Source: a virus. Taken from it: DNA of 23,311 nucleotides. Under the pieces are notes generated by a model. It did not search any database, had not been told where the DNA came from, and saw only the letters and a list, made by a program, of their open reading frames with translations. Positions 5,033 through 23,311 of the stretch are shown one piece after another. Location of the stretch: positions 1-23,311 of the IMG/VR virus record IMGVR_UViG_3300027082_000007; one strand, 5' to 3'. Made by a program: the position numbers and the translations under genes. Position 1 is the first letter of the stretch; the number at the start of each line of letters is the position of its first letter.

Positions 5033-6697
5033 TTATTCCTCCAACTTTTTTACACGTTGTTCAAGCCTTGATATTTTAGAAAGTAAAAAATCTATATAAG
5101 ATACAGTTAAATAACCCTTGCTGTTTTTATTTACTAAATTAGGATAAAATTCTTGCAATTGCTGTGCAGAAACACCATATCTAAGTCTATCACTTTCTTT
5201 AAACTTAAACTGAATAAAATCTACATTATCAATATCCTCATTTTGTATTCTTTCAACATCCTTTTTTAAGGTTATATCTGAATTTAATATAAAATCTCCT
5301 GCTGTTATTTCGTAGCTTCCTATATCCACATTTCCATTCGCACTTAAATTATTAACATATAATGTTCTAGTACCCATGGATGTTACATGACCATGACCAT
5401 CTATATAAATATTATCTATAATAGTACTTCCACTTGTATTTATATCACCTTGACTAGAAGTATCTGAATGTGAGATGGTGGGGTGTGATTCATTTCCCTT
5501 TCCTCCACTAATACTAATACCACTACCCGCATTTACGTTATAAGCATCCCATAAAACTGCTGTACCATTTCCACCCCAAGAACCCAAAAAACCGATAGAA
5601 TTATCTCTTCCTATTTCTCCATCATTAACATCTTCAATATTTGAAAATTTAACATGGTCTACATCTCCATTTTCAATTGCATTTCTTGCTTCTGAATCTG
5701 TATAATAATTTGCATTACTATCACCTGTGAAACCTAAATTAGATAATGTTAAATTTCTAGTACTATATGTAGCATTTGCATCTGTTACATGACCTTCTGT
5801 ATCTGAATTTATATTAAAATTTAAATCACTAATTACTGTAGCTCCACTCAAAGCTCCCGTATCTACAGAGGCATTATCCCCCGAATGTGAAGGGTGTGAA
5901 TAGTTATTAAAATTATTACTCACCCATGTTTCAGTTGCTACTGTATTATCAATACTGATCGTACCGGAGGAATAATCAATACCTGTACCACCGGAAAGAT
6001 GAGCGTCAACATCGCTATCAGTATAATAATTATGTGATGCAGTAGAACCGTGATCTGTATCGTTATTTATTGCATTTATTGCATGAGAATTGTCATAGTA
6101 ATTATTTGATGTCCACGGTGTTGTCCCATCATCTAATTTAGCACTCCTTAGATTGTTAACTTCTGATGATGTAAAGTTATCTGCAGGAATTGTTGAACTA
6201 TAAGCTATACTTGGTTTATTTGCCAAATCAGTATAATCACCGCTGAAATAATTATGTGATGCTGTACTACCATGATCCCCGTCATTATTTATTGCACTTA
6301 TTGCATAAGAGTCATCATAATAATTGTTTGATGTCCAAGGAGTTGAACCATCTGCCAATTGATTTGCTTGTAAGTTGCTTACTTCAGTTGAAGTGAAAGC
6401 ATCAGCTGCAATAGGTGTAGTATATTCTGGTGCAGTTAAACCTAAATCACTGTAAGTATAAGAGTATTGGGTAATGTCAGATTTATCTATAGAAGATAAG
6501 ACAGAAGTCCAATCACTATTAGTTATACCCCCTTCTAATCTATATTTTTGATCACCAACTACATATACCTCAAGACCTTCATACCTTTTAACATCAGATA
6601 TATTGTCCCTTTCTGTGGTACTTGAAACCACAGTCCTCAGATCAAGAGGTTTTTGTAATGAAGCATTAAATCCGCTACTTAGAGGTATTCCAGCCAT
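5033..6697 (-). CDS. Tail fibre with C-terminal S74 self-cleaving chaperone (554 aa)
   Basis: The product is a 554-residue fibre or spike. Residues 1-75 form an N-terminal attachment region (KRYEGLEVYVVGDQKYRL). Residues 95-152 and 169-226 are an obvious 58-residue duplication. Further fibre modules include two GHVT...TR.L motifs (about 302-316 and 437-445). Residues 471-554 are an intramolecular chaperone of the S74 type: NSDITLKKD with the predicted cut between Asn472 and Ser473, YGVSAQQLQEFYPNLV at 507-522, YLTVSYIDFL, and a closing coiled coil (LLSKISRLEQRVKKLEE). In this family the chaperone drives trimerisation and is then released. Here an 82-residue fragment would leave a roughly 472-residue mature fibre. 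It lies between the Ig-like tail gene and the BACON gene. It is likely the receptor-binding fibre or one of several. The receptor is unknown. Confidence 0.88.
   Translation of the reverse strand: MAGIPLSSGFNASLQKPLDLRTVVSSTTERDNISDVKRYEGLEVYVVGDQKYRLEGGITNSDWTSVLSSIDKSDITQYSYTYSDLGLTAPEYTTPIAADAFTSTEVSNLQANQLADGSTPWTSNNYYDDSYAISAINNDGDHGSTASHNYFSGDYTDLANKPSIAYSSTIPADNFTSSEVNNLRSAKLDDGTTPWTSNNYYDNSHAINAINNDTDHGSTASHNYYTDSDVDAHLSGGTGIDYSSGTISIDNTVATETWVSNNFNNYSHPSHSGDNASVDTGALSGATVISDLNFNINSDTEGHVTDANATYSTRNLTLSNLGFTGDSNANYYTDSEARNAIENGDVDHVKFSNIEDVNDGEIGRDNSIGFLGSWGGNGTAVLWDAYNVNAGSGISISGGKGNESHPTISHSDTSSQGDINTSGSTIIDNIYIDGHGHVTSMGTRTLYVNNLSANGNVDIGSYEITAGDFILNSDITLKKDVERIQNEDIDNVDFIQFKFKESDRLRYGVSAQQLQEFYPNLVNKNSKGYLTVSYIDFLLSKISRLEQRVKKLEE
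6020..6193 (-). repeat. Fibre repeat, second copy (58 residues)
   Basis: Residues 169-226 of the S74 fibre. They share with residues 95-152 the order PAD.FTS.EV.NL, DG.TPWTSNNYYD, AI.AINND, and DHGSTASHNY. The two copies are equal in length and lie 222 nt apart, indicating a tandem duplication with a 16-residue spacer. Confidence 0.85.
6242..6415 (-). repeat. Fibre repeat, first copy (58 residues)
   Basis: Residues 95-152 of the S74 fibre, the partner of the copy at residues 169-226. The best-conserved part is TPWTSNNYYD through DHGSTASHNY. The differing codons show the duplication is not recent. Confidence 0.85.
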
Positions 6698-6702
6698 AAT
6701 TA

Positions 6703-7455
6703 TTAATATTTATAAGTTATTTTAAAATCTGTTTGAGTAGTTAAATTATTAAACTCATACACTTTATAGATTTGATCTGTACCATCTAACATAGAAAAGG
6801 TCTCATCAGTTTCAGTAAAATCACCTATAATTTCAAATCCGTTAGAATCTAATATAGAGCTTAATGAACCATAACTAGCAGGATAAGCAAAATAATATAC
6901 TTCAGATGAAGGGGATTCATAAACTACTTTATTAGATTTAGACTCAATAAGTTTAGTTAGGTTTTGTACCTCAGATGGAGTTAAACCTGGAGCACCAGTA
7001 CCATGATAATAAGGGTAAACAAAATTGTAACTTTCAGAGTCACTTACAGTTTGAGTACCATCACTAACATCTACACGATAAGTTGTATTTGAAGAAACTC
7101 CAGTGCTATCTGTATAAGTTTCAGTACCACCAGAAGCTGAAGGACTAGATACCACATGTATAGATGAGCCATCCCTAAAAAATTCAACTGAAGTTATATC
7201 ATTAGTATTTTTAGTTGTATTAGCTGATAAATCTACAGACGTAATGTTATCACCATATTCCCTTAAGCTATTTGTAGGTGTAACACTCAAATTAACAGAT
7301 GGAGCTATATAAGGATATAAAAGCTGATCAAACATTTGAGTCATAGTTTCATCGCTAAAAGTATCACCAGATTCTATACCCCCTAAATCTTGAGGTACTG
7401 GAGTACTGTTAGTATATGTTTGTTGGCTTACTTGTATTAACCTATTACTGCTCAT
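6703..7455 (-). CDS. Tail protein with Ig-like domain (250 aa)
   Basis: The product has 250 residues. The N-terminus (about 12-52) carries PVPQDLGGIESGDTF and MFDQLLYPYIAP, a pattern I recognise from proteins encoded beside fibres in many phages, where it probably attaches the protein to the tail or a fibre. Residues about 53-150 form an Ig-like beta region (VNLSVTPTNSLREYGDNIT ... VEFFRDGSSI ... NTTYRVDVSDGTQTV). A C-terminal domain of about 100 residues starts with GAPGLTPSEVQNLTKLIESK and ends in beta strands. It starts inside the stop of the glycosyltransferase gene (ATGA), so the two are translationally coupled. An AAGGAG precedes the start by 9 nt but is also the Leu-Arg-Arg coding of the upstream gene. 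Likely a structural tail accessory protein; ligand unknown. Confidence 0.7.
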   Translation of the reverse strand: MSSNRLIQVSQQTYTNSTPVPQDLGGIESGDTFSDETMTQMFDQLLYPYIAPSVNLSVTPTNSLREYGDNITSVDLSANTTKNTNDITSVEFFRDGSSIHVVSSPSASGGTETYTDSTGVSSNTTYRVDVSDGTQTVSDSESYNFVYPYYHGTGAPGLTPSEVQNLTKLIESKSNKVVYESPSSEVYYFAYPASYGSLSSILDSNGFEIIGDFTETDETFSMLDGTDQIYKVYEFNNLTTQTDFKITYKY

Positions 7456-8039
7456 ACTTTATATCTCCTTAAATAATTTCTATAACTAAATACCCTATCA
7501 ACCCATTTTATATTTTCTTCACCAGCTTCTTGAATTAAATTTTTTAAATAATCATATTCTTCAGCATATAATCTTTCATTTTCCCATTTAATATGTTTAT
7601 ATTTTGAAGGTACAACTATTTGAGCTGTATCAATATACGCTGGCTTTATATATTTAATATCAAATTTTTTAATTCTCCTTTTCCTACTGGCTGAAAACTG
7701 ATTAAATATTAATATAGTATTTTCATCACCATAGGTTTCTATTTTCTCTAAAAGCTTTGAATGTACTAGATTATCATCATCTAAATAATAAATCCATTTC
7801 CCTTCAGCTAATTCTAAACCTTTATTTCTCTGATCACTCCCATAAGCATAACCACCTTTTTGATGTACTAATTTAATAGGAACAAAATCTTCATAAAGTT
7901 TAATTCTGCTATCAATACTATCAGAATCATATACAATAATCCATTCAACTTCATTACTCCCCATTTCTAATATAGACCTATACATTGCAGGGAGATTCAT
8001 TGGTCTTGTACAAGGAGTTATTATACTTAATTTAAACAT
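7452..8039 (-). CDS. Small family-2 (GT-A fold) glycosyltransferase (195 aa)
   Basis: The product is a 195-residue GT-A-fold glycosyltransferase. It starts FKLSIITPCTRPMNLPAMYRS, the usual nucleotide-binding opening of family 2. It has EWIIVYDSD at 32-40, RNKGLELAEGKWIYYLDDDN at 71-90 with the metal-binding DDD at 87-89, and DTAQIVVP later. Enzymes of this kind transfer a sugar from a nucleotide-sugar donor; donor and acceptor cannot be read here. At 195 residues it is short for the family and has no membrane segment. It is locked into the fibre operon: TAA T ATG after the 1026-aa fibre, and its stop overlaps the next start (ATGA). It is the only gene here ending in TGA. The position suggests sugar modification of a fibre or other virion protein, but modification of host surface glycans is also possible. 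Confidence 0.85.
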   Translation of the reverse strand: MFKLSIITPCTRPMNLPAMYRSILEMGSNEVEWIIVYDSDSIDSRIKLYEDFVPIKLVHQKGGYAYGSDQRNKGLELAEGKWIYYLDDDNLVHSKLLEKIETYGDENTILIFNQFSASRKRRIKKFDIKYIKPAYIDTAQIVVPSKYKHIKWENERLYAEEYDYLKNLIQEAGEENIKWVDRVFSYRNYLRRYKV

Positions 8040-21171: not shown

Positions 21172-23311
21172 TTACCTTAATCTATTAAAATTAAATTTCC
21201 TATCATCAGTAAAAAATCTCTTTTTGAAGAAATTATCTACTTTGGTTGTTTTTTTCTTTTCTTTAACATGTACATTGTGCAATTCCTTCTTATACAACAT
21301 AACCATCATAAGTGCAATAACACGGTCAAAGTTGCCTTTATCATTATATGCTATAAGTTCTTGAAGTAAAGGAATTGACATTATCTTTTCTAAATTTTTG
21401 TGGCCAGGTGCATATTCCTCATTTAACCAATCCCGTATCTCTCGTTCGCCCCAGTCTTTAATTGCCTTGGTCATATGGATACCTTTCTTACGCTGTACTT
21501 TTGTAGTACTAATTATATCACTAATAATATCAGGTTGATTAGCTAACATGTAATCATAACCTTTAATAGCAAAATGAGCATATAAACCTTTACGCTCATT
21601 CTCATACAATAATCTAGCATTATAATATTTTAATAACTTAAGTACATTCTCGTAATATTCTTCAGCTGAATCTGGCCTACCAGTATACTCAGCTACAATA
21701 ATATCATAATATTCTTCAAAAGACTGAAAGCGTTTATAGATAAAAGTACTACCTAAAGATGAGGTAGTTGATTCATCATGATCGTACGGATCACAGTTAT
21801 GTCCAGTACAATAAGGGCTTATAAAAGAATGTGTCTCACAATCAAAATTATAAACAGTACCAGTATAAGTTGATTCCTTTATATCTTTTATTTGTAAATA
21901 TATATAATCTAAATCATTACTAAAAAAACACCCGTCTTTAGGTCTTTGTCTAACATCTGGTAAATTACCTATATCTACTTTATTAATTTTATGATCTATT
22001 TTATCGTGTACTTCATTAACAAACTGAAGCGTAGAATGGTGTGATAATCTTAAATGATAAGTATCTAACTGTTCAACATCTCTACCTAATATAATACCTT
22101 GTTTAGAATTTCTTAATTTATTCATATTTGATATTATACCTATACTAAATAAAATATCCTGAATATCTTCTAGTAGCTCTTGGCTTACACTAACAAATTC
22201 AGTACTATAATATTTTTTATTCCTTAGTATACTACCATCAGAATCTAAATATCCTTGTAACAAATCAACTTTATATTCCCAAGGTATATATTTAACCCAT
22301 TCTGGTATGTTTTTACTTGAAGCACCCAAACCAAAAGTTTCGTTTAAAAACAAAGACAATTCTTGGTGACCAAAGCTAAGTTCAATACAATTACCTCTCA
22401 ACCTAGAATAAACCTTTCTATCAAATATATTATTAGCTATATTAATAAATTTATCTATATATAAATATTCATCCTTATTAAAACTTACATATATTTTATT
22501 CTTATCAGCCCATCCATCTCCTAACCATAAACCTACAAACCACCAAAAATAATCTTCATCTTCTATATTAAAAGGTAAATTATAAGGTTTATTTTTCTTA
22601 TAAACATTAGGATATTTTATCCATTGACCTTCTTTAACATTTCTTACCCTAACAAAATCAAAATTAAAATTACTAGAATTTATTGTATTATTAGAGTTAT
22701 AATAAGAATCACTTACATATAACGGATGTTCTTGAGTCAAAGTAGTAGTCCTATAAATATTGCTAACTTTTATTTTATAAATAGGTTCATCTTCTTTTTC
22801 ATATCTTAATAGAGTATTTATATCAACTAGCTCACCTTCTTTATTTATAAGTTTATCATCTAAAGTAACATCTTCAACATTTTTTAGACCTTTATCTGTC
22901 TTAACTTTTTCACCAGGAGTTAAACAACCAGCAATATATAATCCATAAGGTGGGTCTTCAACAGGATGTTCCCATATAACAACAGCTCCGTGCTTATCAT
23001 CATTTTTATCAAGTGGAAACTTAGTTATATCTTTAGAGTCTGTAGTTTGTACCCACTTAAGCCTTCCATCTGGGCCAAATTTTAAATCACCAACTTGTTT
23101 ATAATTATACAATTTTTTATCTGTTTGAATTTTAGCCAACTGGTCTTGTAATTCTTTCTTTGGGAATATATTACCAGCTAATTGCAAAGTAGCTTCCATC
23201 GGTGTATTTGGATGTTCTGCTATGTGCCTATCAATTGCATTCTTATCGCCTGAATTCTGCTCAACCTTACGTCTTTCTTTATTAGTCTTTTCTATGGCTT
23301 CTTTAATCATA
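21172..23311 (-). CDS. terL: Terminase large subunit, C-terminal part, with intein; N-terminus beyond window
   Basis: The frame is open to the right edge, and the ATPase domain (Walker motifs) must lie beyond it. An ATG at 23310 is most likely an internal Met, because the first visible residues (IDRHIAEHPNTPMEATLQLAGNIFP) belong to the linker after the ATPase. Numbering from that Met, the nuclease domain has its first catalytic Asp in CDPYDHD (Asp507), an acidic second site in LLYENE (Glu570) and a third in FDRVIAL (Asp662), the RNase-H-fold pattern of TerL nucleases. A 377-residue intein sits between Gly128 (GLYIAG) and Cys506, so the Asp is joined to its beta strand only after splicing. The protein cuts and pumps concatemeric DNA into the head. 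It is coupled to the portal gene (TAATATG). The tail is basic (KEKKKTTK). Confidence 0.9.
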   Translation of the reverse strand, partial: MIKEAIEKTNKERRKVEQNSGDKNAIDRHIAEHPNTPMEATLQLAGNIFPKKELQDQLAKIQTDKKLYNYKQVGDLKFGPDGRLKWVQTTDSKDITKFPLDKNDDKHGAVVIWEHPVEDPPYGLYIAGCLTPGEKVKTDKGLKNVEDVTLDDKLINKEGELVDINTLLRYEKEDEPIYKIKVSNIYRTTTLTQEHPLYVSDSYYNSNNTINSSNFNFDFVRVRNVKEGQWIKYPNVYKKNKPYNLPFNIEDEDYFWWFVGLWLGDGWADKNKIYVSFNKDEYLYIDKFINIANNIFDRKVYSRLRGNCIELSFGHQELSLFLNETFGLGASSKNIPEWVKYIPWEYKVDLLQGYLDSDGSILRNKKYYSTEFVSVSQELLEDIQDILFSIGIISNMNKLRNSKQGIILGRDVEQLDTYHLRLSHHSTLQFVNEVHDKIDHKINKVDIGNLPDVRQRPKDGCFFSNDLDYIYLQIKDIKESTYTGTVYNFDCETHSFISPYCTGHNCDPYDHDESTTSSLGSTFIYKRFQSFEEYYDIIVAEYTGRPDSAEEYYENVLKLLKYYNARLLYENERKGLYAHFAIKGYDYMLANQPDIISDIISTTKVQRKKGIHMTKAIKDWGEREIRDWLNEEYAPGHKNLEKIMSIPLLQELIAYNDKGNFDRVIALMMVMLYKKELHNVHVKEKKKTTKVDNFFKKRFFTDDRKFNFNRLR
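21796..22926 (-). other. LAGLIDADG intein inside terminase large subunit
   Basis: The in-frame insertion is 377 residues, residues 129-505 of the visible product. Splicing features are all present: N-terminal Cys129 (CLTPGEKVKTDKG), a block B TQEH with His195, a C-terminal part VYNFDCETHSF, penultimate His504, terminal Asn505, and Cys506 as first extein residue. Two homing-endonuclease motifs lie in the middle: FVGLWLGDGW (acidic Asp265) and LLQGYLDSDG (acidic Asp358). Both keep the catalytic acidic residue, so the endonuclease looks intact. The insertion is much more A/T-rich than the flanking extein: 6 of 60 G+C at 22441-22500 and 9 of 60 at 22561-22620, against 26 of 60 at 21421-21480. That fits a horizontally mobile element. 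It is not an intron, as the reading frame runs straight through. Confidence 0.92.

Follow-up and report, generated by a model that had tools for sequence, protein, structure and literature searches.

What raises a question at this locus is the position of an intein in a phage large terminase (TerL): the element lies one residue before the first metal-binding aspartate of the nuclease domain, where it may have settled as a homing element with a preference for highly conserved targets or may serve to delay DNA packaging until splicing is done. The window, by which we mean the whole stretch of DNA analysed here, comprises all 23,311 bases of an IMG/VR record and is a linear fragment. The N-terminus of TerL is lost at the contig end, the first codon seen being the contig edge, and the ATPase domain is therefore missing from the window. 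PHROG 6681 (TerL) matched the exteins in a profile search with E = 5.6e-68, and the features of the gene are collected in Table 1.

The window also gave matches to phrog_6681, 6547 and 11589, the TerL, portal and major capsid homologues of the crAss-like group, and to the ring protein profile CrAss_Ring_3_4 at the cut-off of that profile, while the closest TerL matches were crAss-like records. These matches place the phage, at group level, among the crAss-like phages (Crassvirales). Elsewhere on the minus strand, a Peptidase_S74 chaperone domain (3.3e-8) ends a long fibre-like protein at 5033-6697, and a family 2 glycosyltransferase (2.6e-11) is encoded at 7452-8039, flanked by structural genes. 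The Trp/Tyr/Gly-rich protein at 1-1152, also on the minus strand, is truncated by the contig end and had no Pfam match; judging by its composition, it may be a tail protein that binds a receptor. No matches were obtained when the 251-aa ORF at 2160-2915 was used in a scan.

Table 1. Positions of the terminase, its intein, the empty intein sites and the intron-like inserts of related loci (window coordinates unless a locus is named)
Feature	Position	Strand	Remark
TerL ORF, 712 aa, C-terminal part	21172..23310	-	Last minus-strand ORF
N-extein: linker and first nuclease-domain strand, ending GLYIAG	22927..23310	-	
C-extein: remaining nuclease domain and stop codon	21172..21795	-	
Intein, 377 aa, CLTPGEK...CTGHN	21796..22926	-	ORF residues 129-505
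Cys1, first splicing nucleophile	22924..22926	-	
Block B, T64-Q-E-H67	22726..22737	-	
First LAGLIDADG motif (FVGLWLGDG), acid D137	22513..22545	-	
Second LAGLIDADG motif (LQGYLDSDG), acid D230	22234..22260	-	
Block F, VYNFDCETHSF	21823..21855	-	
Block G, His376-Asn377	21796..21801	-	
Cys+1, second splicing nucleophile, first residue of C-extein	21793..21795	-	
Asp+2, first catalytic Asp of nuclease	21790..21792	-	T4 gp17 D401 equivalent
Empty intein site B (AEHPN/TPMEA)	23203..23208	-	
Empty intein site D (GNFDR/VIAL)	21319..21324	-	
Intron-like insert, copy in L089	L089:3616-3839		
Intron-like insert, copy in L091	L091:5070-5292		
Intron-like insert, further copies			L163, L164, L168, L171

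The initial annotation had recognized the intein by eye, with its splicing residues complete and neither LAGLIDADG acid lost, and its boundaries proved exact to the base. The element splits TerL as GLYIAG/CDPYDHD. Every splicing residue was found (C1, T64/H67, H366, H376, N377 and C+1), as were both endonuclease acids (D137 and D230), in an unbroken reading frame, and the GC content of the intein was 25.6% vs 30.6% and 34.6% in the exteins. Comparison with intein profiles, which the annotation had proposed as a check, gave a match to LAGLIDADG_3 at E = 2.8e-10, better than the Pfam cut-off, and a weak match to Intein_splicing at E = 4.6e-5, below Pfam's own cut-off. A profile built from nine same-site inteins matched PI-PkoII (2e-12) and also PI-SceI, and in Foldseek the AlphaFold model of the precursor gave matches of about 1e-15 to both VMA inteins and PI-SceI. 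With Cys at position 1, a TxxH block B, a terminal His-Asn, Cys+1, a Hint fold recovered through the Foldseek intein matches and two LAGLIDADG motifs that keep their acidic residues, the element is, as judged from its sequence, a class 1 intein bearing a LAGLIDADG homing endonuclease, and both its splicing and its endonuclease are presumably active.

Close relatives carry the empty site. The TerLs of L002 and L003, with 94% amino acid and about 90% DNA identity to the window, read uninterrupted GLYIAGCDPYDHD at the intein site, so that the flanks join as YIAG-CDPYD exactly as had been predicted for intein-free homologues, and against them the insert is 1131 bp, exact save for a TGT common to both junctions. 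The TerLs of L004-L006 (78% identity to the window) also lack an intein at this site, again with the flanks joined exactly. These exact empty alleles, the full set of splicing residues and the recurrence of homologous inserts at the equivalent position of dozens of independent contigs leave practically no chance that the insert is a permanent TerL domain or an assembly artefact that does not splice; on sequence grounds, that reading is already refuted.

The difference between the window and L002 may be either a gain in the window or a loss in L002. DNA identity between the two was about 98% from -110 to +70 and about 90% farther away, with two mismatches near the intein site, at 0 and +12. A co-conversion tract was considered for this segment, but no clear one is seen: the mismatches fall at 0 and +12, and co-conversion would not predict so close a match to an allele that is empty, so no tract is claimed.

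The catalytic identity of Asp+2 is supported by alignment. L129, a T4-type TerL with an intein at the same site, places Asp+2 on D401 of gp17, the residue with which the nuclease triad begins, and the Asp was invariant in 15 divergent intein-free TerLs, the residue preceding it being variable. On the strength of this alignment and this invariance, the initial annotation was correct in placing a single residue between the intein and the first metal-binding Asp. Searching the PDB with the TerL profile returned spurious nanobody matches only. The pLDDT of the AlphaFold precursor was about 31-42 at the intein junction, and the model of an intein-free TerL was poor throughout (mean pLDDT 46.6); both models being poor where they were needed, neither was used to argue for disruption of the sheet. 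The initial annotation had the strand that carries the Asp detached from its sheet until splicing; since a Hint fold has its two ends near each other, the sheet may be disturbed to a greater or lesser extent.

Scans with the intein recovered homologous inteins at the homologous point of 86 further loci, giving 87 in total, many of them redundant; 50 loci were left at <90% intein identity with intron-bearing loci set aside. Like the other members of this family, the window intein directly adjoins the Cys-Asp pair that contains the first nuclease Asp (hereafter site C), and Cys-Asp directly followed the intein at all 87 loci. The members recovered first also had identical splicing residues. The TerL types that carry the family include CDPYDHD, CDSYDQD, CDSIDSD, CDPAEDD and the T4-like CDVSRGDG, and most of the hosts tested were confirmed as terminases by profile searches. 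Intein matches in other phage proteins were at most 27% identical. One member, at L172:4001-5143, is on a contig that was binned with an uncultured bacterium; the contig is probably a co-binned phage.

The trees of the inteins and of TerL conflict. Between the window and T4-type TerLs, the inteins were 39-45% identical and the C-exteins only 13-18%. The opposite was seen in L124 and L086, where the exteins were 89% identical and the inteins 39%, and in the window and L103 (79% and 49%). The window and L103 were sisters in the TerL tree (99), and forcing their inteins together was rejected (AU p 0.0015); for the second discordant pair, L124/L086, the AU test was not significant (p 0.135). Occupancy was counted among 95 distinct TerLs found in two scans restricted to what lies downstream of the junction. 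The intein was present in 13 of them, and at least 11 occupancy changes were required on the tree.

Other motifs of the same protein have been hit as well, and inteins thus target several sites in the TerL of this group. Site A (FGTGG/TEE, in the ATPase domain) was occupied in L004 and L005 (in L005 upstream of 5818), site B (AEHPN/SPMEA) in L002 and L003 (L002:3895-4914), and L084 carried two inteins, one at the window's site and one at site D (GNFDR/CMAFM; L084:5697-6815). In L046 (4726-5814) the intein lay three residues further along the ATPase motif (FGTGGTEG/). The inteins at sites other than the window's are different inteins, and the window and L002 are reciprocal at sites B and C, one being filled exactly where the other is empty. 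Sites A-D ranked at the 82nd-93rd percentile of local conservation along TerL, a pattern that fits selfish elements surviving only at conserved targets with zero scar. Most of the intein-free relatives L007-L081 use in-frame TAG as a sense codon in TerL; the TerLs of 67 relatives contained 379 in-frame TAG and no TAA or TGA, and that of the window contained no TAG.

We regard the element as very probably a homing LAGLIDADG class 1 intein that belongs to a widespread TerL-specific family. The same-site family in unrelated TerLs, the conflict between the trees, the turnover and the other motifs hit in sister phages point to homing at a conserved target, and they support the first of the two readings that the initial annotation had offered, a preference of homing endonucleases for conserved sites. 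The intein would be translated within the terminase and would excise itself through Cys1, Asn377 and Cys+1, joining GLYIAG to CDPYDHD and thereby restoring the nuclease active site. Its endonuclease would cut the intein-free terL of co-infecting phages near the codons of the catalytic motif, and repair of the cut gene would copy the intein in; we infer the homing event itself from the patterns above. Three things would favour the site: few stretches of the gene are as conserved, any scar kills an essential enzyme so that scarless splicing is forced, and many susceptible TerLs have the +1 Cys from the outset. Cys was found at +1 in 68 of the 78 empty TerLs of the window's clade, and among TerLs farther removed the residue varied (H, A, Y, T, L, I, V); this Cys may be either a footprint of past occupancy or a precondition for insertion.

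About ten of the 87 family members align with an altered LAGLIDADG acid or penultimate residue, and therefore not every member is an active homing element. Endonuclease decay is a normal stage in the homing cycle, and the altered acids in some members, together with this expected loss, would suit a decayed or trapped intein that still splices but whose endonuclease is inactive, leaving the gene stuck with it. The window element keeps both acids and the motifs around them, matches LAGLIDADG_3 above the cut-off and has an unbroken frame, so we consider decay unlikely in this case.

The second reading, that slow or signal-dependent splicing holds back the nuclease and packaging until late infection or a signal, to the profit of the phage, draws on the position of the intein in a catalytic motif that the enzyme cannot do without. 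Some inteins of other proteins are known to splice conditionally. For TerL inteins, the authors of the work on cyanophage Mic1 proposed that splicing may control packaging (PMC7156551). The distribution in relatives speaks against such a switch here: a 94%-identical TerL lacks the intein at this site and has a different one elsewhere, sister lineages have theirs in a different domain, and the at least 11 occupancy changes among 95 TerLs indicate frequent turnover, all of which would be unexpected if a switch mattered. Moreover, no regulatory feature was found in the window, and the mycobacteriophage terminase inteins that have been tested spliced readily (PMC5050341). There is thus no sign yet of a packaging switch, the suggested delay has no support beyond the position of the intein, and we consider it very improbable. 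The striking position at the catalytic Asp is found again in terminases with hardly any sequence in common, and nearly identical phages do without the intein; the evidence shifts a plausible idea towards selfish homing.

The site is also close to a second kind of insert. It breaks the C-extein of cr7_1, cr131_1 and many contigs directly behind TGYGACCCGT, and the frame resumes with ATGAYCAYGAY. The insert is ORF-less and about 225-240 nt long (somewhat longer in a few), and its position in terL is constant, 10 nt downstream of the intein junction. A T precedes its 5' end and a G stands at its 3' end, which are hallmarks of group I introns, and its fold is backed by 24 pairs changed on both sides among six copies. 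No Rfam match was obtained at the insert. From its junction bases and covarying fold it appears to be a group-I-like intron, whose removal is predicted to join CCGT to ATGACCATGA. The RefSeq terminase CDS of cr7_1 (NC_055895.1, L089) and cr131_1 (NC_055902.1, L091) ends just after the intein, and the intron, with the change of frame, has left the remaining nuclease domain unannotated there. This matters for annotation, as these two terminases are truncated where the intron comes after the intein.

The core motif of the intron was found in at least 80 viral contigs, in 25 of them at the TerL junction (20 with the intein and five without), and no copy was present in the window, which has the intein only. 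Among the 95 junction-independent TerLs, eight had intron and intein, four the intron alone, five the intein alone and 78 neither, an association with a Fisher p of 4e-6 that is uncorrected for descent; a descent-corrected test had about five usable pairs, nearly all in one direction, and cannot reach significance. The intron thus accompanied the intein in 8 of 12 distinct copies and stood alone in the remainder. It is possible, and we suggest it tentatively, that the first-Asp codons of terL are a cross-family homing hotspot for the intein and the group-I-like intron, which would splice by different chemistries, and that, where both are present, the intein endonuclease mobilises the pair as a single compound element. 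Close relatives with an empty allele, the intein, the intron or both provide a natural system of homing elements that compete for or share a target.

Among known inteins, PI-PkoII, PI-SceI and the TliVMA intein likewise consist of a Hint splicing domain that harbours a two-motif LAGLIDADG endonuclease, but they occupy other insertion sites in other host proteins, and identity is about 13-16%. Inteins in crAss-like TerL are already published, and the window adds one more member. According to passages in Yutin et al. (2021; PMC7886860), the TerL of Delta-group crAss-like phages "typically" holds an intein, which is the same type of host protein as in the window; these passages give no residue-level site, spread over unrelated terminases or tree comparison. 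The inteins of RefSeq cr7_1, cr118_1 and cr131_1 were 36-38% identical to the window's and lie at the identical site. In the incomplete body of literature searched, the first-Asp site was not found described as a same-site family across unrelated terminases.

The Mic1 TerL (PMC7156551) has one nuclease-domain intein, also followed by Cys+1-Asp+2. Its location (QDHL/C...N/CDALRY) reads as the third-Asp motif and not as site C, and it is short and lacks the endonuclease domain that the window intein has. In mycobacteriophages, the terminase inteins TerL1-a to -e, TerL6-f and Pham3880-g have been described, and some of their LAGLIDADG endonucleases cut intein-free partner alleles (Kelley et al., 2016; PMC5050341). 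They likewise occupy functional motifs of a phage terminase, and site A of the window's relatives (FGTGG/) resembles their C-motif site f. All mycobacteriophage sites are in the ATPase domain (PMC5050341), whereas the window's family interrupts the nuclease domain, next to its first catalytic Asp; terminase inteins thus extend beyond the ATPase domain, unlike what was found in the mycobacteriophage survey.
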